Part shown: in pieces, positions 4,846-24,490 of the stretch
How the letters are laid out: each line of letters begins with the position of its first letter
Numbering within the stretch: the first letter of the stretch is position 1
Virus record (IMG/VR): IMGVR_UViG_3300009604_000062
Coordinates: 1 to 27,469 of that record
Direction: 5' to 3' (one strand)
DNA length: 27,469 nt
Origin: a virus
Program-made: the position numbers and the translations under genes
Notes under the pieces: model-generated
Seen by the model: only the letters and a program-made list of their open reading frames with translations
What the model was told of the DNA's origin: nothing
Databases searched by the model: none

Positions 4846-5181
4846 ATGAATAGCAATATAAACAATTTAAGTAACAGCTTAGTTCCGACTAAGGATAACG
4901 CAGGCACAAGTATACCAAGTCAGTCTAAGGCTGTATCTAGCTCATCTGTAGCCCTAATAGCAACACCACTAAATAATGCGACTGACATGGTTGCATGGAC
5001 AGTGATGGATGCAGGTATCTATGTAACATTTGACGGCACAGCAGCTAGCTCATCTAATGGTCATTTGATAGCATCAGGCACAAGCGGTGAGTGGTCTAAG
5101 GCTACAGCAGCAGCAGCATTAGCGATACGTGATGATGCGACAGATGCTCGTGTTCAGTTTAGTGAATTCCAAACTCGCTAA
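4846..5181 (+). CDS. Small virion-associated protein
   Basis: A 111-residue protein, Ser/Ala/Thr-rich. It contains AWTVMDAGIYVTFDGTAASS and ATAAAALAIRDDATDARVQFSE, phrases that recur in small structural proteins beside the adaptor gene in marine podoviruses. A beta-sandwich is likely, with neither signal peptide nor membrane segment. It starts four bases after the adaptor stop and ends three bases before the next gene, so it is part of the neck and fibre operon. No specific function is known to me. Confidence 0.6.
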   Translation: MNSNINNLSNSLVPTKDNAGTSIPSQSKAVSSSSVALIATPLNNATDMVAWTVMDAGIYVTFDGTAASSSNGHLIASGTSGEWSKATAAAALAIRDDATDARVQFSEFQTR

Positions 5182-5184
5182 GAC

Positions 5185-6117
5185 ATGGGTTTACTAGGAG
5201 AAGGCGTATTAGGCTCTAACGGCACAGGTGGTGGCGGAGGAGGTGGTGGTGCTGGCCTTAATGGAGAAGAATTAGAATTTGTCACTGACACAGGTGCAGG
5301 GTCAACCGCACTACTTGGTGGACAGAAATTAACTGATGCATCGGCTGCTTTAGATGCTGGCGGTATTAATTCAATTAGTGTTTTAAATGGTGCTAATGCA
5401 GCTACGATGGTTGCTTCTGGTCTTGAGACAATAGCGATAGGGCATGATGTCAGGGCTTTAGGTGATTACGCAGTATCAATCGGTAGTGGGGCTGAAGCCG
5501 ATAATACTGGTTGTACTAGCGTTGGATACAAAGCTGGCGCAGGAACATCAGTCTCGCTAGGAATCAGGGCTACCTCAATAGGATATTTATGTGGTGCTAC
5601 AGTAGGAGTAGAGGCAGTAAGTGTTGGTAGAAGTGCAAATGCTAAAGGCGATAAATCTATTGCACTTGGTTGGTTCACTGAGACTACAACAATATCAGAT
5701 GGCGCAGTAGCAATCGGAGGATTAGCAGATTGCAATGGAGAGGGTTCTGTCTCTTTGGGTGGCGGTCTAGCTACGGGCGCACAAGCAATGTCAGATGGAG
5801 CTATTGCTATTGGTGGAGCTATTGGTGCTACCGCAGCAGCAATCGCAAACACTGGAGATAGGGCAATGGCAATAGGTTCAGGTGCAGTTGCTACGGCAGC
5901 AGATTGCGTAAGCGTTGGTATAGGAACAAACTCTACAGCAAACACATTTCAATTAAATGCAATGAAGTTGGTTGTTCCAGCGACTACAACTACTAGAGCA
6001 GGTATTAACTCTCCACATGGAACAGCACCTACAACACCCGTAGATGGTGATATATGGACTACTACGGCAGGCTTATATGTTCGTGTAAACGGATCAACAG
6101 TCGGCCCTCTATCTTAA
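5185..6117 (+). CDS. Fibre or spike protein with YadA-head-like beta-roll repeats
   Basis: A 310-residue protein. It starts MGLLGEGVLGSNG followed by a run of Gly, probably a virion anchor plus flexible linker. Residues about 80-250 contain about a dozen short repeats centred on A-I/V-(A/S)-I/V-G (AIGHDV, AVSIGSGA, SVGYKAG, AVAIGG, AMAIGSGAVAT). This is the pattern of the left-handed parallel beta-roll in the head of YadA-type trimeric autotransporter adhesins. Residues 260-310 (TRAGINSPHGTAP, TPVDGDIWTT, GLYVRVNGS) are a C-terminal cap common in phage fibres. The protein is likely a homotrimer exposed on the particle, for receptor contact. Family knowledge plus visible repeats; the assignment to fibre rather than head spike is inferred. 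Confidence 0.75.
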   Translation: MGLLGEGVLGSNGTGGGGGGGGAGLNGEELEFVTDTGAGSTALLGGQKLTDASAALDAGGINSISVLNGANAATMVASGLETIAIGHDVRALGDYAVSIGSGAEADNTGCTSVGYKAGAGTSVSLGIRATSIGYLCGATVGVEAVSVGRSANAKGDKSIALGWFTETTTISDGAVAIGGLADCNGEGSVSLGGGLATGAQAMSDGAIAIGGAIGATAAAIANTGDRAMAIGSGAVATAADCVSVGIGTNSTANTFQLNAMKLVVPATTTTRAGINSPHGTAPTTPVDGDIWTTTAGLYVRVNGSTVGPLS

Positions 6118-8245: not shown

Positions 8246-9346
8246 ATGGCAGTCCCCGTAAAGATAGCTGGCACTATAAAAGGTGGCGAGCTTAGAGAGG
8301 CAGACCTTCACCGTAGAAATGGTGATACAGGTCTTGTCGTCTTTGCAGAGGATTTAAGGGCTAAGACGCAGAAATCAGGATTTGCAATCAACTCAGATTT
8401 TGGATTTGAGATGGCTGTAGATGGTCAGTTTGGTGGAACACCTGATGTAGTGCATGTGGGTATAAGTGATGGAGTTAATTGGACAGGTAGCAATATAGTA
8501 GGTGGTAAAGGTAACTTTGATAGTGGAGATAGAGCTAATAGTGGAACAGTTAGTGTTAAGTGGGATAATATGGCCCTTAATGATATTATTGAGTTTGATA
8601 AAGGTTCTGATATAACTGCTTCTAATCATGTTGCTGTGACAATGTTTGTTAATGTAGACAAGGATTGGTCCGCAGGAGATTCTATAGAGTTATATGCGTA
8701 TGACACAGGTTCTGCAACAACAGTAGGTAACTCTATAGCTATAGAGGATTATATAAATGAGTTCTCTTTTGATATTTGGCAGAGCGTTACAGTCCCATTT
8801 TCAGACTTAGGATTAAGTGATACTGATTTTGACGCTTTCCGCATGGCACATACCGCTAAGGGTGGTGGCAAGTCACCTAAGTTTTATATTGATGACTTCC
8901 AAGTTGAGGAGACAGGAACACCAGCAATATTTAAGGTAGAGCCTGACTTTAATGAGATATTTAATGTTGAAAGAATGACACTTACATTTATTGATGCACT
9001 AAACAATACCTTAGCATCAGGGACTACTCCTAGTATAAGTTATGATAAGATTCTAGGTGAGACTAAGCTTACAACAGGCATTCAGCTTCTCAGGATACAA
9101 TCTGAAAGCATTAAGTTTGGAGCAATAATAACTTGCATAGGAGACTTAACCAGGGGTGGTGCAACTATTAGGGATAACTACGGAGATGGAACAAATACAG
9201 TAATATCATTTGATATAGATTTCAGCGTACCTGTTCCCTTAGACCCTAGAAGTAGAGATAGCCTGTCAATTACTATTAGTGATAATTTAACAGGACTAAT
9301 AAGCTTTACTGCTTTAGCAAGAGGCTACACCACAGACTTAGATTAA
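8246..9346 (+). CDS. Putative virion protein with galactose-binding-like beta domain
   Basis: A 366-residue protein, predicted all beta. Residues about 90-225 (GTVSVKWDNM, VTMFVNVDKDWSAGDSIELY, FDIWQSVTVPFSDLG, FDAFRM, KFYIDDFQVEETG) have the rhythm of galactose-binding-like or carbohydrate-binding domains, in which the last strand reads as F-x-I-D-D. The C-terminal 140 residues (IFKVEPDFNEIFNVERMTLT and on) form a second beta domain. A role in surface glycan binding or as a receptor-contact accessory is plausible but not shown. The stop overlaps the next ATG by TAATG. Confidence 0.55.
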   Translation: MAVPVKIAGTIKGGELREADLHRRNGDTGLVVFAEDLRAKTQKSGFAINSDFGFEMAVDGQFGGTPDVVHVGISDGVNWTGSNIVGGKGNFDSGDRANSGTVSVKWDNMALNDIIEFDKGSDITASNHVAVTMFVNVDKDWSAGDSIELYAYDTGSATTVGNSIAIEDYINEFSFDIWQSVTVPFSDLGLSDTDFDAFRMAHTAKGGGKSPKFYIDDFQVEETGTPAIFKVEPDFNEIFNVERMTLTFIDALNNTLASGTTPSISYDKILGETKLTTGIQLLRIQSESIKFGAIITCIGDLTRGGATIRDNYGDGTNTVISFDIDFSVPVPLDPRSRDSLSITISDNLTGLISFTALARGYTTDLD

Positions 9347-9837
9347 TGAACTTAACTTTAGATATAGATCAAGAGCAAAAGCTTAGTAGGGATTTCTCTA
9401 ATAAGGTAATTGATAGTTTTAAGGACACATCTAACCCTGTTACTTGCGGTAATTGCTACTCTTGTTGTGCGCTTGATGTTAAGTGCTTCCCAGAAGAGGC
9501 TAAGAAGCTTGCTGAGATGGTTATTAATGAAGAGGTAGAGATTGATATTAAGAAGCTTGAGAATCGAGTCAAAGGCAGCAAGGAATCAAAAGATAAGTGG
9601 TGTTCATTTCTTAAAAAAGGCAAATGCTCAGTGTATGACAATCGCCCTATCACCTGTTCAAGAATGTTAGTAGTTAGTGACCCAGAGAATTGCAAGGACA
9701 CAAATAATAAAGCAGTAGCACAGGTAGAACCTAAGATGCTTGATAAGAGGTGGCATGTATTGGCATCCACACACGGCAAGGTGGTTCTTCATGTAGCACT
9801 ATACAATTTATTGAAGAAAGAAGGATTTGTAAACTAA
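9346..9837 (+). CDS. YkgJ/FliB-type CxxCxxCC cysteine-cluster protein
   Basis: A 163-residue protein. Residues 34-41 read CGNCYSCC, followed by C47, W85-C86, C94 and YDNRPITC (C104), then C116. The pattern CxxCxxCC ... C ... C-x-x-Y-x-x-R-P-x-x-C is that of the YkgJ / flagellin N-methylase (PF03692) metal-binding cluster, thought to bind Fe-S or zinc. In FliB it is linked to lysine N-methylation of a structural protein, so modification of a virion protein is a possible role here. That is inference. It is embedded between virion and lysis genes, with TAATG overlaps on both sides, and is a non-structural gene in a structural operon. Confidence 0.8.
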   Translation: MNLTLDIDQEQKLSRDFSNKVIDSFKDTSNPVTCGNCYSCCALDVKCFPEEAKKLAEMVINEEVEIDIKKLENRVKGSKESKDKWCSFLKKGKCSVYDNRPITCSRMLVVSDPENCKDTNNKAVAQVEPKMLDKRWHVLASTHGKVVLHVALYNLLKKEGFVN

Positions 9838-10310
9838 TGATTACATTGTTACTTAGTCTATTTGCAAGCGGAGGAGGAGTTGCATTAGGCGGTATCTTAA
9901 AAGCAGCAACAGGCGTAGTAGCATCAGGAGCACACAGGAAGGAACTAAATGTCCATAAAGAAATACTTAGAGAATCAACCGACAAGGAGGCGTTATTGGC
10001 TTTTCAAGAGGCTGTCTTTGGCAATAGTGAAGTGGGCATTTTTGCTGTCCATACTCGCAGGATTCTGGCTATTATCGGGGTGTGTACACTCGCAGTCGTC
10101 ACAATCCACTGTGTCCTCTTCTCCTACGATCCCTTCATCACATTGCCGTCCGTTGCCAGTAGCTCCGAAGGAGGAAGTTGGTCAATCCTCGGTCTTATCA
10201 CGATACCGAGAAGTAATGCACCGATACAGCTTACGCTTGGGCATCTTGCACTAATGAATTTAGGATCACTACAGATGGTATTAGGCTTTTATTTTGGAGG
10301 TAGGAAGTAA
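9837..10310 (+). CDS. Holin-like membrane protein hosting a nested lipoprotein gene
   Basis: The start is taken at ATG 9837, in a TAATG overlap with the previous stop; the in-frame ATG at 9750 would lie deep inside that gene and is rejected. The 157-residue product has an N-terminal hydrophobic, Gly-rich segment (MITLLLSLFASGGGVALGG), a short charged helix, a membrane segment near residues 75-95 (ILAIIGVCTLAVVTIHCVLF) and a last hydrophobic stretch with LMNLGSLQMVLGFYFGGRK. This topology and the C-terminal GFYFGGR are usual for small holin-like phage membrane proteins. Between about 9950 and 10250 it uses many C-ending codons (GTC, ATC, CTC, TCC), unlike its AT-rich neighbours, as expected where a second frame is also coding. 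Confidence 0.65.
   Translation: MITLLLSLFASGGGVALGGILKAATGVVASGAHRKELNVHKEILRESTDKEALLAFQEAVFGNSEVGIFAVHTRRILAIIGVCTLAVVTIHCVLFSYDPFITLPSVASSSEGGSWSILGLITIPRSNAPIQLTLGHLALMNLGSLQMVLGFYFGGRK
9949..10254 (+). CDS. Nested lipoprotein, putative o-spanin (Rz1-like), out of frame inside holin-like gene
   Basis: A 101-residue ORF in another frame, entirely inside the holin-like gene. It has an Arg-rich start, hydrophobic core FLLSILAGFW and lipobox L-S-G-C (Cys45), then a Ser/Pro-rich segment (SSPTIPSSHCRPLPVAP) as in short outer-membrane spanins. AGGAAGGA at 9936-9943 lies five bases before ATG 9949. An alternative TTG start at 10018, with AAGAGG six bases upstream, would give a compact 22-residue signal peptide. 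Rz1-type lipoproteins fuse outer and inner membranes at the end of lysis and are often nested, but normally in the Rz gene. Signal, lipobox, ribosome site and the codon shift of the host frame together support a real gene; the spanin role is inferred. Confidence 0.7.
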   Translation: MSIKKYLENQPTRRRYWLFKRLSLAIVKWAFLLSILAGFWLLSGCVHSQSSQSTVSSSPTIPSSHCRPLPVAPKEEVGQSSVLSRYREVMHRYSLRLGILH

Positions 10311-10633
10311 TGGGTATTGATGAGCAGAGTATAAAGAATCAGCTAACTGATCTGTTTAAAAAGACAGACAATCACACTGAGAGGATAGCTGCTATTGAGA
10401 TCATTATGGGTAACAACTCAAAGATGATAGAGGCTATTAATAATTCATCTAATGTGATGGAGAAGTGGGTAGCAGATGCCCATAGAGTTTTGTATGGTGA
10501 TGAGAAGATCGGTGTAGCTGGATTAGTAAAACAACACAATAAGATGTGGGTATATACTCAGAGGATATTGATTGGTGGCGCAGTAGGCGTTTATCTTCTG
10601 AAAGAGTTAAATTTATTAGATAAGTTAGCATGA
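10310..10633 (+). CDS. Small coiled-coil protein with C-terminal membrane segment, lysis-associated
   Basis: A 107-residue protein. Residues 1-70 are helical and charged (NQLTDLFKKTDNHTERIAAI), and residues about 82-100 form a single hydrophobic segment (TQRILIGGAVGVYLLKEL). Coiled coil plus C-terminal anchor recalls XhlA-like holin accessory proteins. An inner-membrane spanin partner for the nested lipoprotein is an alternative, although classical Rz proteins have an N-terminal anchor. It is coupled by TAATG to the holin-like gene and by ATGA to the nozzle gene. Role inferred from topology and place. Confidence 0.55.
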   Translation: MGIDEQSIKNQLTDLFKKTDNHTERIAAIEIIMGNNSKMIEAINNSSNVMEKWVADAHRVLYGDEKIGVAGLVKQHNKMWVYTQRILIGGAVGVYLLKELNLLDKLA

Positions 10634-13152
10634 GTAGATATAAAAACAAGCAGCAGAGTATGGATGATGTTTACGTCGAGAATGGCGATAATCACTTCAT
10701 GGGTTTTGACACTAGGTTACACCCTACCTTGTTGCCTGCTGGCGTTGTACAGGTATCAGAGAACATGCGCTTAGATAACCTTAATGCCACTGTGCGTAAA
10801 GGTATAGACCGTATTAGCAATGATGTAATTACAGAGGGTAATGCGCTTACGCTTCCATTTGCTTTAGGTAGTAGTATTCCTTTATCTACAATTGATGCTT
10901 ATGATTCTATAGGTATTGCAACATTAACTAATGCACCTAGTCCAGCCATAACTAATAATGACACATTAGAGGTTACAGGAGCATCTGATGCAGAATATAA
11001 TAGTCATTCTTCATGGTTTAGTGTTGGTGGATTAAACTACCTTTATATTTTAGATGGCACTCCTGCTAGTGACCCTGCTGTGTTAGGTTCACAAACCAGT
11101 CCAGACTTTCCATTAGCATCACCTGTAGAGGCATTAAAGCCTGGTGTTGAGTATAAGATAACCACTTATAACTCCCCTGATGACTTCACTAATATCGGTG
11201 CTAGTGCAAATCAGGTGAATGAGGTATTTACAGCTACAAGCGATGCAGAACCTACTAACTGGACAGGAGCATCGGTATTAACTAGGACAACACTTACTGC
11301 ATCTGGATTACTTGGTTTAGTTACAGATGGTGTATTTGCTACATGTTTATTTTCAGATGTAGAGACTAATAAAGAGTATGTGGCTATGGCTACATCTACA
11401 AAGTGTATTCTTGTTAATCCTGACGATACAGGAAACCCTATTAATATAGCATACGGAACAGATTTAATTTTAGAGCCATCAGATGCATCAGATATAGTCC
11501 AAGTAAATAATGGCTTACTGATAAATATGGGTAAGCTTAAAAAGGCTATTGAGTGGGATGGTAATGTTTCTTCAGTGGCAGATCATCGTGCAGCAGATGT
11601 TACTGTAGCTAGTAATGTGGTAACTGTAACACTAGGTGCGACACATGACTTTCATGTAGGTGATAATATGCTTGTAAGTGGTGCTACACCATCAGACTTT
11701 AATGGAACTTTCCCTATAACTGCTATTACGAGCACTACATTTACGTATGCATTAACTTTAGGTGACCAGACAGCGACGGGGACTATATTAGTATCTAAGG
11801 TAGCTACATTTGAAGAGGTGGCTGATACTAACGTAACAGGTTTCTTGAGTATGCCAAAAGCAGACTTCAGCACATACCATCCTTTTGCTAGGTTGATTGT
11901 TCCGTTGCGTGTTCTTGAGTTAGACATTGATACATCACTTACATCAGTAGGCACTACAGCGACAGCTACAACTACTTATAATCACGGTCTACAGGTTGGT
12001 GACAGGATTACTATGACAGGTGCAGCTAACCCTGAGTATAATGGCATTAAAGAGATATTAACTACGGGTGATAAGACATATACTTACGCTATTACAGGCA
12101 CACCTACATCACCCGATACTGGTGCTAGTATTACATGTGAGATAGATGTAAGAGATCAGTTTATCATATCTGATATATATGACCACAGAACATACGACCC
12201 TGTTAATAACCTATTTAGGATTAATCGTGGTGCTGCTGACCAATTAATAAGCTTCTTAGTATTCCAAGAGGATAACTTAGTAGCATTATATCAGAGGTCT
12301 ATACATATCATCTCTGGATTAAACACAGCAGAGTTAAATGATAGCCAAGTGCGTCAGGTAACATCTGAGGTAGGTTGTATCGCTAGAAAGACAGCTACTA
12401 TCGTTGGTAACAAAATGATCTTCTTAAGTGAGCATGGTGTTTATATGTTAGAGATCACACCTGAGTTAAACCTTAGAGGTGTAGATGTTCCGTTATCATT
12501 TGACATACAAGATGAATTTAGAGGTTTAAATTATGACTTCATTGATAAGTCTGTAGGAATATACTTTAATAACCGTTATTACATTGCAGTTCCATCATCA
12601 GGTAGTGAGCGTAATGATGTAGTTTATATTTATAACTTCCTTAATAAGAAGTGGGAGTCTAAAGATACATTTGTAGGCTCATCTAACTATATTGATAATT
12701 GGGTTATATGCCAGAAGGACGGACAAGATAGATTGTTTGCTTCATCAGTTGAGGGTGCATTGCAGTTATATGAAGAGTTAGAGCTTGATGAGATCCCTAT
12801 AATTGAGGCAGGTCCATTTGTAAACACTGAGATTGCAGGCAAGTTGACTACACGTAGATACGTAGGTGGATCAAATAACACAGTTAAGAAATTTAATAGA
12901 GGCACAGTAAACTTTGAGGTAGGAACTTCAGATGCCTTTACAGTAACAGCTACAACAGAGAACCCTGAGACATCAGTAACGGGGCTAACTGAGGTGGCTA
13001 CAGCAGATGAGGATAAACATAAGAGATTCCGCATCAATAAACGTGGCACTGGTGTCGAGTTAGAAGTCAACACAACTGTTGGCAGACCTACTATACGTAG
13101 TATCTCAGCAGAGTCTACAGAAACACAAAGAGCAAATAAATCTTTTGAATAA
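10630..13152 (+). CDS. Tail nozzle / tail stabilisation protein with inserted beta modules
   Basis: An 840-residue protein. The N-terminus (GFDTRLHPTLLPAGVVQVSE, then RLDN ... VRKGI) matches the start usual in gp10-like tail hub and nozzle proteins of podoviruses. Residues about 540-700 (NLVALYQRSIHIISGLNTAE, VGCIARKTATIVGNKMIFLS, GVYMLE, RYYIAVPSSG, YIYNFLNKKWES) form a beta-propeller-like repeat set typical of these proteins. Inserted are a module near residues 165-222 (GVEYKITTYN, DFTNIGASANQVNEVFTAT) and two FCCH-like modules near 320-392 (HDFHVGDNMLVSG, FNGTF, FTYAL, ATGT) and 436-505 (NHGLQVGDRITMTGA, YNG, YTYAI). The nozzle closes the tail and channels DNA. The start overlaps the previous stop as ATGA. 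Confidence 0.7.
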   Translation: MSRYKNKQQSMDDVYVENGDNHFMGFDTRLHPTLLPAGVVQVSENMRLDNLNATVRKGIDRISNDVITEGNALTLPFALGSSIPLSTIDAYDSIGIATLTNAPSPAITNNDTLEVTGASDAEYNSHSSWFSVGGLNYLYILDGTPASDPAVLGSQTSPDFPLASPVEALKPGVEYKITTYNSPDDFTNIGASANQVNEVFTATSDAEPTNWTGASVLTRTTLTASGLLGLVTDGVFATCLFSDVETNKEYVAMATSTKCILVNPDDTGNPINIAYGTDLILEPSDASDIVQVNNGLLINMGKLKKAIEWDGNVSSVADHRAADVTVASNVVTVTLGATHDFHVGDNMLVSGATPSDFNGTFPITAITSTTFTYALTLGDQTATGTILVSKVATFEEVADTNVTGFLSMPKADFSTYHPFARLIVPLRVLELDIDTSLTSVGTTATATTTYNHGLQVGDRITMTGAANPEYNGIKEILTTGDKTYTYAITGTPTSPDTGASITCEIDVRDQFIISDIYDHRTYDPVNNLFRINRGAADQLISFLVFQEDNLVALYQRSIHIISGLNTAELNDSQVRQVTSEVGCIARKTATIVGNKMIFLSEHGVYMLEITPELNLRGVDVPLSFDIQDEFRGLNYDFIDKSVGIYFNNRYYIAVPSSGSERNDVVYIYNFLNKKWESKDTFVGSSNYIDNWVICQKDGQDRLFASSVEGALQLYEELELDEIPIIEAGPFVNTEIAGKLTTRRYVGGSNNTVKKFNRGTVNFEVGTSDAFTVTATTENPETSVTGLTEVATADEDKHKRFRINKRGTGVELEVNTTVGRPTIRSISAESTETQRANKSFE

Positions 13153-13715: not shown

Positions 13716-13755
13716 CCTTGTAATTAATTTTAAACAATATAACATATAAAATATC

Positions 13756-14658
13756 ATGGGATTATTAGACTTTTTTAGTGGTGGCGCAGAAGAGCCAGAA
13801 ATGATGAGTGGCGCAGAGATGGCAAGGGAAACCGTTGGAGCGCAAGAAGTATTCTTGCCTGAGCGTGAGCGTTTACGTGAGCAGTATGGTAGCCAAATAA
13901 TGCAAGGCGCATTAGGTCGTGCTGGAACAGCAAGGAGTGGCTTAAGCGGTATAGCAGCAGGCCAAGCACAAGATATATCCAGAGATCGGGGTATATTAAA
14001 CCGAGGTGATATGGACATGCTTAGGCAGCAGTCACAAGGGTTTACTGGTGCTGAAAGGTTACAGGCTTTATTACAGCAACAAGCAGAGGATGAGCTAGCT
14101 TTAGGCGGTCAATTGTCTAATGAGGAGATGAGGAATGTAGATCAACTCACACAGCAAGCCACACAAAGGCAGGGAAGGGGTGCAGGAGCGTTTAACGTAG
14201 GCCAGCTAGCCCTCGGTAGGCAAGGAGCAGTAGATGCCCGTAAAGCTCAACGTAGGCAGTTTGCTGGACAGACAATTGGTAGTGGGCTAGCGGTATCTAA
14301 TCCGTTACAAAGGATAATGCAACAGAACACAGCAGCAGCAGGGAGTTTACCGCAGAGGTTAGGGCAGACTTTACAGTTTGCAGACCAAAATACAGTAAAC
14401 TTTGACCCTATTAACCAGAATGTAGCTAATGCGGCACAAGCACAGTTTGCGGCTGACCAAGCACAATACCAAGCTGATAGAAGCTTCCTACCTGATTTAA
14501 TAGGTGGTGGGCTAAGTATGGCAGGATCTATCTTTGGTGGACCAGCAGGAGGTATGCTTGCTAGTAAGATATTTGGCGGTGGAGGCGGAGGTGCATTCCC
14601 TCAAGGTCCTGTTACACAGACAGCACCAGGCGTTACAAGATTCGGTAGATTAGATTAA
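13756..14658 (+). CDS. Putative internal virion (ejection) protein 1
   Basis: A 300-residue protein, rich in Ala, Gly and Gln. Residues about 15-230 are helical with many Q-rich stretches (LRQQSQGFTGAERLQALLQQ), and the C-terminus is Gly-rich and mildly hydrophobic (LIGGGLSMAGSIFGGPAGGM) before a polar tail. This composition is usual for podovirus internal proteins that leave the capsid with the DNA and assemble a channel across the cell envelope. It is first of three consecutive genes of this kind. The 5' context AAAATATCATGGG equals that at 3157. No enzyme motif is seen. Confidence 0.6.
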   Translation: MGLLDFFSGGAEEPEMMSGAEMARETVGAQEVFLPERERLREQYGSQIMQGALGRAGTARSGLSGIAAGQAQDISRDRGILNRGDMDMLRQQSQGFTGAERLQALLQQQAEDELALGGQLSNEEMRNVDQLTQQATQRQGRGAGAFNVGQLALGRQGAVDARKAQRRQFAGQTIGSGLAVSNPLQRIMQQNTAAAGSLPQRLGQTLQFADQNTVNFDPINQNVANAAQAQFAADQAQYQADRSFLPDLIGGGLSMAGSIFGGPAGGMLASKIFGGGGGGAFPQGPVTQTAPGVTRFGRLD

Positions 14659-19836: not shown

Positions 19837-20382
19837 TTACTGCTTAATGTGATCCCACCTTTTTCTCCTAACAATTAAGCTTATGTTAGTTCCTGTAGTA
19901 TTATATATCCTGCCAATATCTGCGTAACTATAATCACTAGACTTATGTAGTTTTCTTATGTTTATGACATCATGCCCTTTGAGCTTTGAAGATCCATTTG
20001 TTTCCCCGAAATTTCTAGTCCCATGCTCTATCTGTCTGCCTATATTATCCTTATGAGACTCCCATATTAAATTATCTAAACTATTATTATTAGGGTTTCC
20101 ATCTATATGAGAACCCTCAAATCCTTTTGGGCAAATTCCTTTAAATGCTTCTAATACCGCCCTATGGGTATAGAGCGTCTTACTGACTCCTTGATAAGTC
20201 ATGGTAAACTTAACCCTAAGGGTATGTTTAGTTATGGGTGATTGCCTTATTATTTTTTCTGGCAAGACACGTGGAGTGTTATTTTTTCCATCAACAATCC
20301 GCTTTAGACTCTTTACCCTGCCTAGATTACTTACTTGGTATAAGCCCTCCCAGTCAACCACATTTTTCCATACTTCCTTCAT
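19837..20382 (-). CDS. NUMOD4-HNH homing endonuclease
   Basis: A 181-residue free-standing nuclease. Residues 1-28 (EVWKNVVDWEGLYQVSNLGR) are the NUMOD4 DNA-binding motif. The HNH core is H73-R74-A75 (THRAVLEAF) and SHIDGNPNNNSLDNLIW with H92, D94, N99 and N104. Residues 133-178 (KLKGHDVINIRKLHK, DIGRIYN, NISLIVRRKRW) are a helix-turn-helix NUMOD-type tail. The domain set is complete, so the enzyme looks intact. It lies last in the minus operon next to an RlpA-like gene with a 98-base spacer. Beyond its TAA the same frame stays open for 21 codons with protein-like composition before another stop. Confidence 0.9.
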   Translation of the reverse strand: MKEVWKNVVDWEGLYQVSNLGRVKSLKRIVDGKNNTPRVLPEKIIRQSPITKHTLRVKFTMTYQGVSKTLYTHRAVLEAFKGICPKGFEGSHIDGNPNNNSLDNLIWESHKDNIGRQIEHGTRNFGETNGSSKLKGHDVINIRKLHKSSDYSYADIGRIYNTTGTNISLIVRRKRWDHIKQ

Positions 20383-20480: not shown

Positions 20481-20840
20481 CTACATTTCTAGCATGTCAA
20501 CACTTTCTCCGTACTTGTCCTTAAATGCTTGTGTCTGTGAGTCTAAATCAAAGACAACCTCTGCCTGTATCCTACCCACATCTAAGGGTGCTATATGCTC
20601 AAATGCCCTCATTGATAGGTCAAGGTCAGTCTTATGGTCTGATCTGTCCGTATTAACGACAACCACTTCCTCGCCACCCCATCTAACAGTTAGCTCAGTC
20701 CCTAAGGGATAAAGCCACGAAGCGCATGTGAAGGCGTGAGGGTCAAAAGGTTCACCACTAGCTGTCAAGTTTCCTGCGTGATCATCGCCATACCACGTCA
20801 CCTGAGCAAGGACTACTATTACTGCTGTATTAAATGTCAT
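20481..20840 (-). CDS. RlpA-like double-psi beta-barrel protein, candidate peptidoglycan-active lysis enzyme
   Basis: The start is chosen at 20840 (MTFNTAVIVVLAQVTWYGDD), preceded by AAAGGA on the minus strand; the longer frame upstream would run through the neighbouring HNH gene. The 119-residue product has a short hydrophobic N-terminus and then the RlpA-type double-psi barrel: WYGDDHAGNLTASGE, FDPHAFTCAS, PLGTELTV, VVVNTDRSD, DLDLSMRAFEHIAPLDVGRI. RlpA proteins are lytic transglycosylases for denuded glycan. The catalytic Asp equivalent (D33) is present, but the residue eight positions on, His in Pseudomonas RlpA, is Ser41. It is the only recognisable wall-active domain in the window. It lies between two HNH genes and overlaps the stop of the upstream one. 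Confidence 0.75.
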   Translation of the reverse strand: MTFNTAVIVVLAQVTWYGDDHAGNLTASGEPFDPHAFTCASWLYPLGTELTVRWGGEEVVVVNTDRSDHKTDLDLSMRAFEHIAPLDVGRIQAEVVFDLDSQTQAFKDKYGESVDMLEM

Positions 20841-21351
20841 ATTGTTTTTTTCCTTTAGTATTAATTGCAGGTTCCCAACCAAATCTTTTTTCACCCTCTT
20901 TCCTGCACTGTATAGCATCGTTAATATTATCAAATAAACCAAGATGGTAGCTCTTTCTTTTATGCATAATTCTAGCTTGCCATTTATTGCATAAATCATT
21001 CCACACTATACCCCGATGTCCGCTATTATTAGTCTTACATGGACCCGAATTTCTAGCGTTCTCCATATTGCTAAGGAATCTTAAATTTACCCTTCTATTA
21101 TCTAATTTAGCACCATCTTTATGGTCAACACATGTTCCTTTTTTAGCATTCATGATATGCCTATGCATAAATATATTTGAGGTAGATCCATTTTTTTTCT
21201 CCTTTACCGATGCACCACGACAAGCATACCCTGCTCCATTCTGGCGATACCATTTATACTTAGATAACTCCTCAAAGTCATCTGCATCCACAAGTGCTGT
21301 GCCCTTATTATTAGCAAGCTGTATTAATCTATAATTAAAGTCTATTTTCAT
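20830..21351 (-). CDS. HNH endonuclease with AP2-like DNA-binding domain
   Basis: A 173-residue free-standing homing-type nuclease. The N-terminal half has VDADDFEELSKYKWYRQNG, usual in this group. The HNH core is FMHRHIM (His63/65) and CVDHKDGAKLDNRRVNLR with H77, D79, N85 and N89. Residues 110-147 (SGHRGIVWNDLCNKWQARI ... LGLFDNINDA) form an AP2-like three-stranded sheet that binds DNA. It overlaps the RlpA-like start by 11 bases, so translation may be coupled. It shares no obvious sequence with the NUMOD4-HNH gene on the other side of RlpA, so the two are separate acquisitions. Confidence 0.9.
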   Translation of the reverse strand: MKIDFNYRLIQLANNKGTALVDADDFEELSKYKWYRQNGAGYACRGASVKEKKNGSTSNIFMHRHIMNAKKGTCVDHKDGAKLDNRRVNLRFLSNMENARNSGPCKTNNSGHRGIVWNDLCNKWQARIMHKRKSYHLGLFDNINDAIQCRKEGEKRFGWEPAINTKGKKQYDI

Positions 21352-24195: not shown

Positions 24196-24399
24196 TTAGT
24201 AGTTCCTCCAAGCGTTCATGTTTTGTGTTTCATAATAGGTAGTCTGTGCTCTCTGTAACCTTCTATCCTCTGATCTGCGTCTATTCTCCTGCCACCTTAC
24301 ATTGAACTCTTGCATAGCCCTTCCTAAGTTATAGTGGTTATTAGGAGTGCCACAGCCTGTAAGCATGGCTAGTATCATTAGTATCACTATTGTCTTCAT
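24196..24399 (-). CDS. Small early lipoprotein
   Basis: The start is chosen at ATG 24399, giving MKTIVILMILAMLTGCGTPN, a perfect short lipoprotein signal with lipobox L-T-G-C (Cys16). A longer in-frame start at 24438 would add 13 polar residues before the signal and overlap the tiny gene upstream. The mature part (about 50 residues) is Arg/Gln/Asn-rich and probably helical (RWQENRRRSEDRRLQRAQTT). It is expressed with replication genes, not with lysis genes. Small early phage lipoproteins elsewhere block receptors against superinfection. That role, or a second spanin, is inference. Confidence 0.75.
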   Translation of the reverse strand: MKTIVILMILAMLTGCGTPNNHYNLGRAMQEFNVRWQENRRRSEDRRLQRAQTTYYETQNMNAWRNY

Positions 24400-24400
24400 G

Positions 24401-24490
24401 TTATTTGTCGCTTGGGTTGATTGGTTCCTCGTAGCCACCGCCTAGACCTAAGTCATGTGGCGATGGTTGATTAGTTTTAGTTTTGCTCAT
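24401..24490 (-). CDS. Tiny hypothetical protein
   Basis: A 29-residue ORF (MSKTKTNQPSPHDLGLGGGY ... NPSDK) starting one base after the ERF stop, with GGAGGG 9 bases upstream and the AAATAATATGAG context shared with the start at 25445. It ends one base before the lipoprotein ATG. The good ribosome site and exact fit argue for translation. Probably unstructured; function unknown. Confidence 0.5.
   Translation of the reverse strand: MSKTKTNQPSPHDLGLGGGYEEPINPSDK

Follow-up and report, generated by a model that had tools for sequence, protein, structure and literature searches.

Embedded spanins count among the classic examples of gene overlap and, to our knowledge, the embedding gene has so far been that of the spanin's own partner. 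Two-component spanins are described as embedded, overlapped, or separated, with the embedded o-spanin lying inside the i-spanin gene (Kongari et al. 2018, PMC6139136), and a 2025 catalogue of viral lytic proteins contains the same classes (PMC12596118). In lambda Rz/Rz1 and other embedded spanins, a short, Pro-rich outer-membrane lipoprotein is encoded entirely inside a membrane-protein gene, in its +1 frame (PMC6139136), and that gene encodes the i-spanin, with an N-terminal transmembrane (TM) segment followed by a periplasmic coil.

The locus described here resembles an embedded o-spanin in these respects but lacks the feature that defines this architecture, in that the embedding gene (hereafter the host gene) does not encode an i-spanin. 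Its product is instead an unrelated, holin-like protein whose C-terminal part has two hydrophobic segments, and a gene with the i-spanin plan, where present, is separate and upstream. As with separated or overlapped spanins such as T4 PseT.3/PseT.2, a lipoprotein and a TM+coil protein are encoded by neighbors in most relatives, but here the o-spanin-like frame sits within a third gene. In the open-licence literature, we found no account of an o-spanin lying within any gene but that of an i-spanin, and an earlier mention elsewhere is possible.

A predicted lipoprotein gene lies within a gene for a holin-like membrane protein

The window, i.e., the whole stretch of DNA analyzed, is viral and comprises positions 1 to 27,469 of IMG/VR record IMGVR_UViG_3300009604_000062. 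Its host gene (9837-10310, plus strand, ATG start) encodes a 157-aa membrane protein with an N-terminal hydrophobic, Gly-rich helix, a charged helix, two C-terminal hydrophobic segments, and a C-terminal GFYFG motif. The nested gene (9949-10254, plus strand), encoding a 101-aa predicted lipoprotein, lies entirely within the host gene in the +1 frame, with nested codon position 2 coinciding with host position 3. A Shine-Dalgarno-like AGGAAGGA (9936-9943), followed by ACTAA, precedes the nested ATG at a spacing of 5 nt. The positively charged N terminus leads into a strongly hydrophobic signal segment (h-region plus LSG, residues 22-44, 10012-10080) and the lipobox L-S-G-C (10072-10083), the cysteine of which is Cys45 (codon 10081-10083). 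The predicted mature lipoprotein (10081-10251) is 57 aa long, Ser/Pro-rich, and without a TM segment, and carries Val, not Asp, at position +2. Coordinates, frame, Shine-Dalgarno sequence, signal, lipobox, and Ser/Pro-rich mature part are thus all as a first-pass annotation of this DNA had given them.

A CxxCxxCC gene (9346-9837; putative zinc/iron-chelating, PF03692) immediately precedes the host gene in a setting of structural genes, and a Cys-rich ORF resembling this type also occurs near the nested module in the relative L054 (9216-9506). The next gene downstream (g10310, 10310-10633, plus strand) encodes a 107-aa protein with a helix-rich N-terminal part and a C-terminal hydrophobic segment.

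The first-pass annotation had called the host protein holin-like, and the membrane plan is consistent with this: the protein is small and has an N-terminal helix and, towards its C terminus, two clear hydrophobic segments, within the range of holins, which have 1-4 TM segments. However, no family match was found in Pfam, PHROG, or PDB, including the described holin families. An AlphaFold model of the host protein (15 sequences) was all-helical, with low confidence (pLDDT 45). The arrangement of an N-terminal helix, a charged helix, C-terminal membrane helices, and a C-terminal GFYFG is shared with three-TM phage holins and phrog_38283-type proteins, and from this plan a small inner-membrane protein with a holin role is plausible. 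The plan is not that of Rz, since it has two C-terminal hydrophobic segments and no N-terminal anchor followed by a long coil. In nine phrog_38283-type membrane genes of similar plan, for which homology to the host family is not established, the +1 frame contains 12-19 stops. Profile comparison aligned these proteins with the host family over 11 residues, at the C-terminal GFYFG only, and they were therefore rejected as an outgroup.

Under codon shuffling that preserved the host protein, P was 0.0006 for a +1 ORF of equal length, and 0/20,000 shuffles produced a lipobox plus hydrophobic region. When codons were resampled according to genome usage, the corresponding values were 4e-5 for nested length and at most 2e-5 for length together with the lipobox/hydrophobic region. 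A chance origin of the nested frame is excluded for the window and for L054. Moreover, host codon choice deviates from the genome solely over the nested span, where mean log RSCU is -0.25; the value is +0.27 in the part before, and the 18 other genes all fall between +0.03 and +0.24. Codons ending in C make up 28% of host codons in the overlap, 14% before, 6% after, and 13% in the 18 other genes tested; the count of 29 in 100 exceeds the maximum of 25 among 4187 windows elsewhere. The shift to C-ending codons that the annotation had placed exactly over the nested span is therefore real and its extent fairly given, but T-ending codons (30%) are equally common there.

Distant relatives retain the nested frame

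Single-query searches with the host proteins of the window and L054 returned only themselves or a near-identical twin contig, IMGVR_3300009418_000040, which represents the same phage as the window (99.99% identity over 8.5 kb). Relatives were reached through a downstream structural gene, which led to L054 (IMGVR_3300024520_000293) and L024. In L054, the gene at 5162-5734 contains a +1 nested lipoprotein at 5340-5678 (...LLLQGCLHTRTAS...), and the L024 host protein is a clear homologue of that of the window (37%). An alignment of the window and L024 host proteins used as a query recovered a large family, and a wider alignment added further members. The nested frame of one type, L191, reads MNLHLNFSNNLIMVLVVLSLGLLVGC...

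In all 144 distinct host-gene sequences, from uncultivated viruses, a nested +1 frame encodes a hydrophobic stretch and, after it, [G/A/S]-Cys, the cysteine being sought around the expected alignment column. The outcome named beforehand as refuting the nested gene, stops in its frame or a missing lipobox cysteine among homologues, did not occur: none of the sequences has a broken frame across the core of the lipoprotein or lacks the [G/A/S]-Cys. A standard lipobox is present in 127/144 and LSGC in 69/144. The remaining 17/144 deviate (e.g., QLSC, HAGC, QGGC, and LEGC), which counts against a lipoprotein or o-spanin reading, and the least typical boxes are those of the L095 group and the L024 type (VLSC, QLSC). 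The frame is retained in about five separate host lineages that are 23-44% identical to the window host protein, with the lipobox position shifted in some. In the host alignment, the LSGC of the window and that of the L110 group share a column; the cysteine lies 6 codons upstream of it in the L094 group and 9 codons downstream in the L095 group. Neither the host nor the nested proteins matched cultured phages.

The nested start also varies by group. The ATG is at host nucleotide 140 in the L094/L208, L094, and L095 types, and upstream, at host nucleotide 113, in the window. In the L110 group, position 140 is ATG, GTG, CTG, ACG, or GCG, often with GTG at 134 and GAGAGAGG upstream. Six L110-group members with neither ATG nor GTG at 140 or 134 have no obvious conserved start, which counts against the nested reading. 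The region containing this variable start (host nucleotides 134-146) is otherwise strongly conserved at synonymous sites.

The nested frame is under purifying selection in relatives

For the window itself, which has a single near-identical twin, the case rests on the codon-shuffle test and positional homology, and the selection tests concern its relatives. These tests employed parsimony reconstruction, and are thus approximate, with other regions of the same gene and the other frame as controls. For the L094/L208 clade, 1778 host-synonymous changes were reconstructed across 74 sequences. Those creating a +1 stop numbered 6 against 40.1 expected inside the nested span (codons 47-125; P = 2.6e-11), compared to 23 against 14.9 in codons 1-46 and 19 against 18.3 in codons 126-154. 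Before and after the span together, 42 were seen and 33 expected, and the +2 frame displayed no stop avoidance (25 vs 29). Host Asn47 is encoded by AAT, which creates the nested ATG, in 70/74 and 15/15 sequences, whereas other Asn codons are AAT in 45% and 15% of cases (P = 4e-16 and 2e-10, respectively).

In the L110 clade (54 sequences), the host synonymous rate was 1.15 in codons 47-79, a stretch containing the nested start, signal, and lipobox, compared to 3.7 elsewhere (P = 2.5e-14), and one +1 stop was found in codons 47-137 against 10.1 expected. The L095 clade had 0 against 9.6 expected, and its drop in synonymous rate was marginal alone (P = 0.08). Over the nested part, host changes altering both proteins were rarer than those altering the host protein only (0.36 vs 0.71 per site), a relation that was reversed before it.

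The controls, within the gene and in the other frame, speak strongly against mutation or RNA structure as the cause of this signal, and selection on RNA structure was rejected because the signal is frame-specific. Purifying selection acts on the nested start codon, frame, and lipobox in these relatives, in agreement with the earlier claim of a lipoprotein gene nested in a host gene of non-Rz plan, and within the host family both the reality of the nested gene and selection on it are close to certain.

The nested lipoprotein is a probable o-spanin

Mature nested proteins are 53-70 aa long, a second membrane segment is present in 0/144, and position +2 is L, S, V, Q, A, R, or W, with Asp in 0/144. 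Given the short mature part and the lack of both a second TM segment and Asp at +2, an outer-membrane lipoprotein of the o-spanin plan, not a u-spanin, is predicted. The lipobox LSGC is identical to that of the phage T1 u-spanin gp11 (PMC6139136), but u-spanin identity was rejected since none of the 144 nested proteins has a C-terminal TM segment. Elsewhere, u-spanin-like proteins were observed: L017, L018, L019, and L020 encode, upstream of the structural gene, 153-161-aa proteins that combine an N-terminal lipobox with another hydrophobic segment in their C-terminal half. In L181, an 86-aa ORF (13746-14006, minus strand; 31746-32006 of the L054 record) has an N-terminal LAFC and a C-terminal hydrophobic segment, so that the L054 genome holds a u-spanin-like ORF besides its nested lipoprotein.

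A TM+coil gene lies directly upstream of the host gene, mostly within 4 nt, in 128 of the 152 loci (relatives with enough upstream sequence, window excluded), and in L054 one begins just downstream, at the end of the host gene. By analogy, this is the plan of an i-spanin gene next to an o-spanin. The gene is missing from the other 24 loci, which counts against a spanin reading, and neither the window nor the remaining 12 kb of the twin contig yielded a candidate i-spanin. The 107-aa protein encoded downstream (10310-10633) is a possible partner of unusual topology, and a single-query search with it recovered only the twin contig. The earlier label of o-spanin-like fits the lipobox and the short mature part, and on sequence grounds we consider the nested protein a probable o-spanin.

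The only lysin recognized in the window is a DPBB lytic transglycosylase (20484-20999, minus strand); the nested gene, at a distance of 10 kb from it, therefore does not form part of a lysis cassette. In 12 records, searches with Amidase_2 and Phage_lysozyme turned up no endolysins. The transglycosylase ORF overlaps an HNH endonuclease ORF (20833-21351, minus strand) by about 170 nt in another frame, which could reflect a misassigned start codon or the presence of a homing endonuclease beside a lysin, and a further NUMOD4/HNH gene is found at 19840-20382 (minus strand). A second, distant candidate lipoprotein is encoded by an 80-aa ORF (24196-24438, minus strand) with a signal, the lipobox LTGC, and a charged, Arg-rich mature part.

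In the near relative L007, flanking genes are 63-77% identical to those of the window, and the host/nested gene is replaced by one for a stand-alone 117-aa lipoprotein with LLAGC (10365-10718, equivalent to 5276-5629 of L010). At the same locus, L012 (5422-5841) encodes a lipoprotein-like N terminus (LLSGC) fused to several hydrophobic segments. The lipoproteins of L007 and L012 suggest that a lipoprotein is wanted at this locus.

Discussion

Based on the data presented above, we favor a model, with a probability of roughly 0.57, in which one DNA stretch encodes a holin-like inner-membrane protein and, nested within its gene, a lipoprotein that forms the outer-membrane half of a two-component spanin. 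The nested frame would be translated from its own ribosome-binding site within the host gene, yielding a lipoprotein precursor that signal peptidase II would cleave before Cys45, with lipidation of the cysteine. As there is no Asp at +2, the Lol system would presumably carry the product to the outer membrane, where its short, flexible Ser/Pro/Gln-rich tail would act in the periplasm as an o-spanin. Its partner in most relatives would be the product of the adjoining TM+coil gene, while the host frame would supply a small inner-membrane protein, possibly a holin.

An unlikely, though serious, alternative is that the nested gene encodes a genuine outer-membrane lipoprotein with a non-spanin role, e.g., superinfection exclusion or receptor masking of the Cor/Llp sort. 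This would fit the persistence of the nested gene with the host gene even where the TM+coil gene is absent, the lack of a recognized endolysin adjoining it, and the weak matches of three members to the Cor PHROG (best E 0.094). However, a TM+coil gene adjoins most loci, the short Ser/Pro-rich mature part suits o-spanins, and Rz-like spanins outnumber Cor among the PHROG matches, even if these matches are themselves weak and scattered (best E 0.0013).

It is improbable, in our view, that the host protein is itself the partner, the two products forming a self-contained inner-/outer-membrane unit tied by the overlap. Host and nested frames do always occur together, in capsid-type, T7-like, and other contexts and with or without the TM+coil gene, but the charged helix of the host protein (approximately residues 29-66 in the low-confidence model) appears short for a periplasm-spanning coil. 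That host codon use gave rise to the nested ORF as a by-product (through chance, or selection on RNA structure or GC content) is scarcely credible, for although conserved host residues fix the nested sequence over part of the host gene, the codon shuffles, the avoidance of +1 stops within the nested span alone (the +2 frame serving as control), the start codon kept through a synonymous site, and the retention across divergent host lineages all oppose it.

The annotation had also suggested a different evolutionary route to the same overlap; this is reasonable but unproven, because no host homologue without the nested gene was found among the 144 distinct sequences to polarize the change.

A selected lipoprotein gene occurs here inside an unrelated membrane-protein gene and is kept in 144 distinct sequences, which shows that genes for other membrane proteins can acquire lipoproteins of this kind by overprinting or capture. 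With neither frame firmly matched in PHROGs or annotated phages, the pair would escape gene callers and family databases. The family also provides a natural system for the study of two-frame selection, with clades of 74 and 54 sequences, within-gene controls, and a lipobox that moves along the host gene while the lipoprotein is retained. More tentatively, and at slightly less than even odds, the locus may represent a fourth spanin architecture, not known from cultured phages and widespread in uncultivated viruses, in which an o-spanin is encoded inside a holin-like gene, possibly with the host protein as its partner. If so, a single locus would encode both the trigger of inner-membrane failure and the outer-membrane lysis factor, and the two would be forced to be inherited together.
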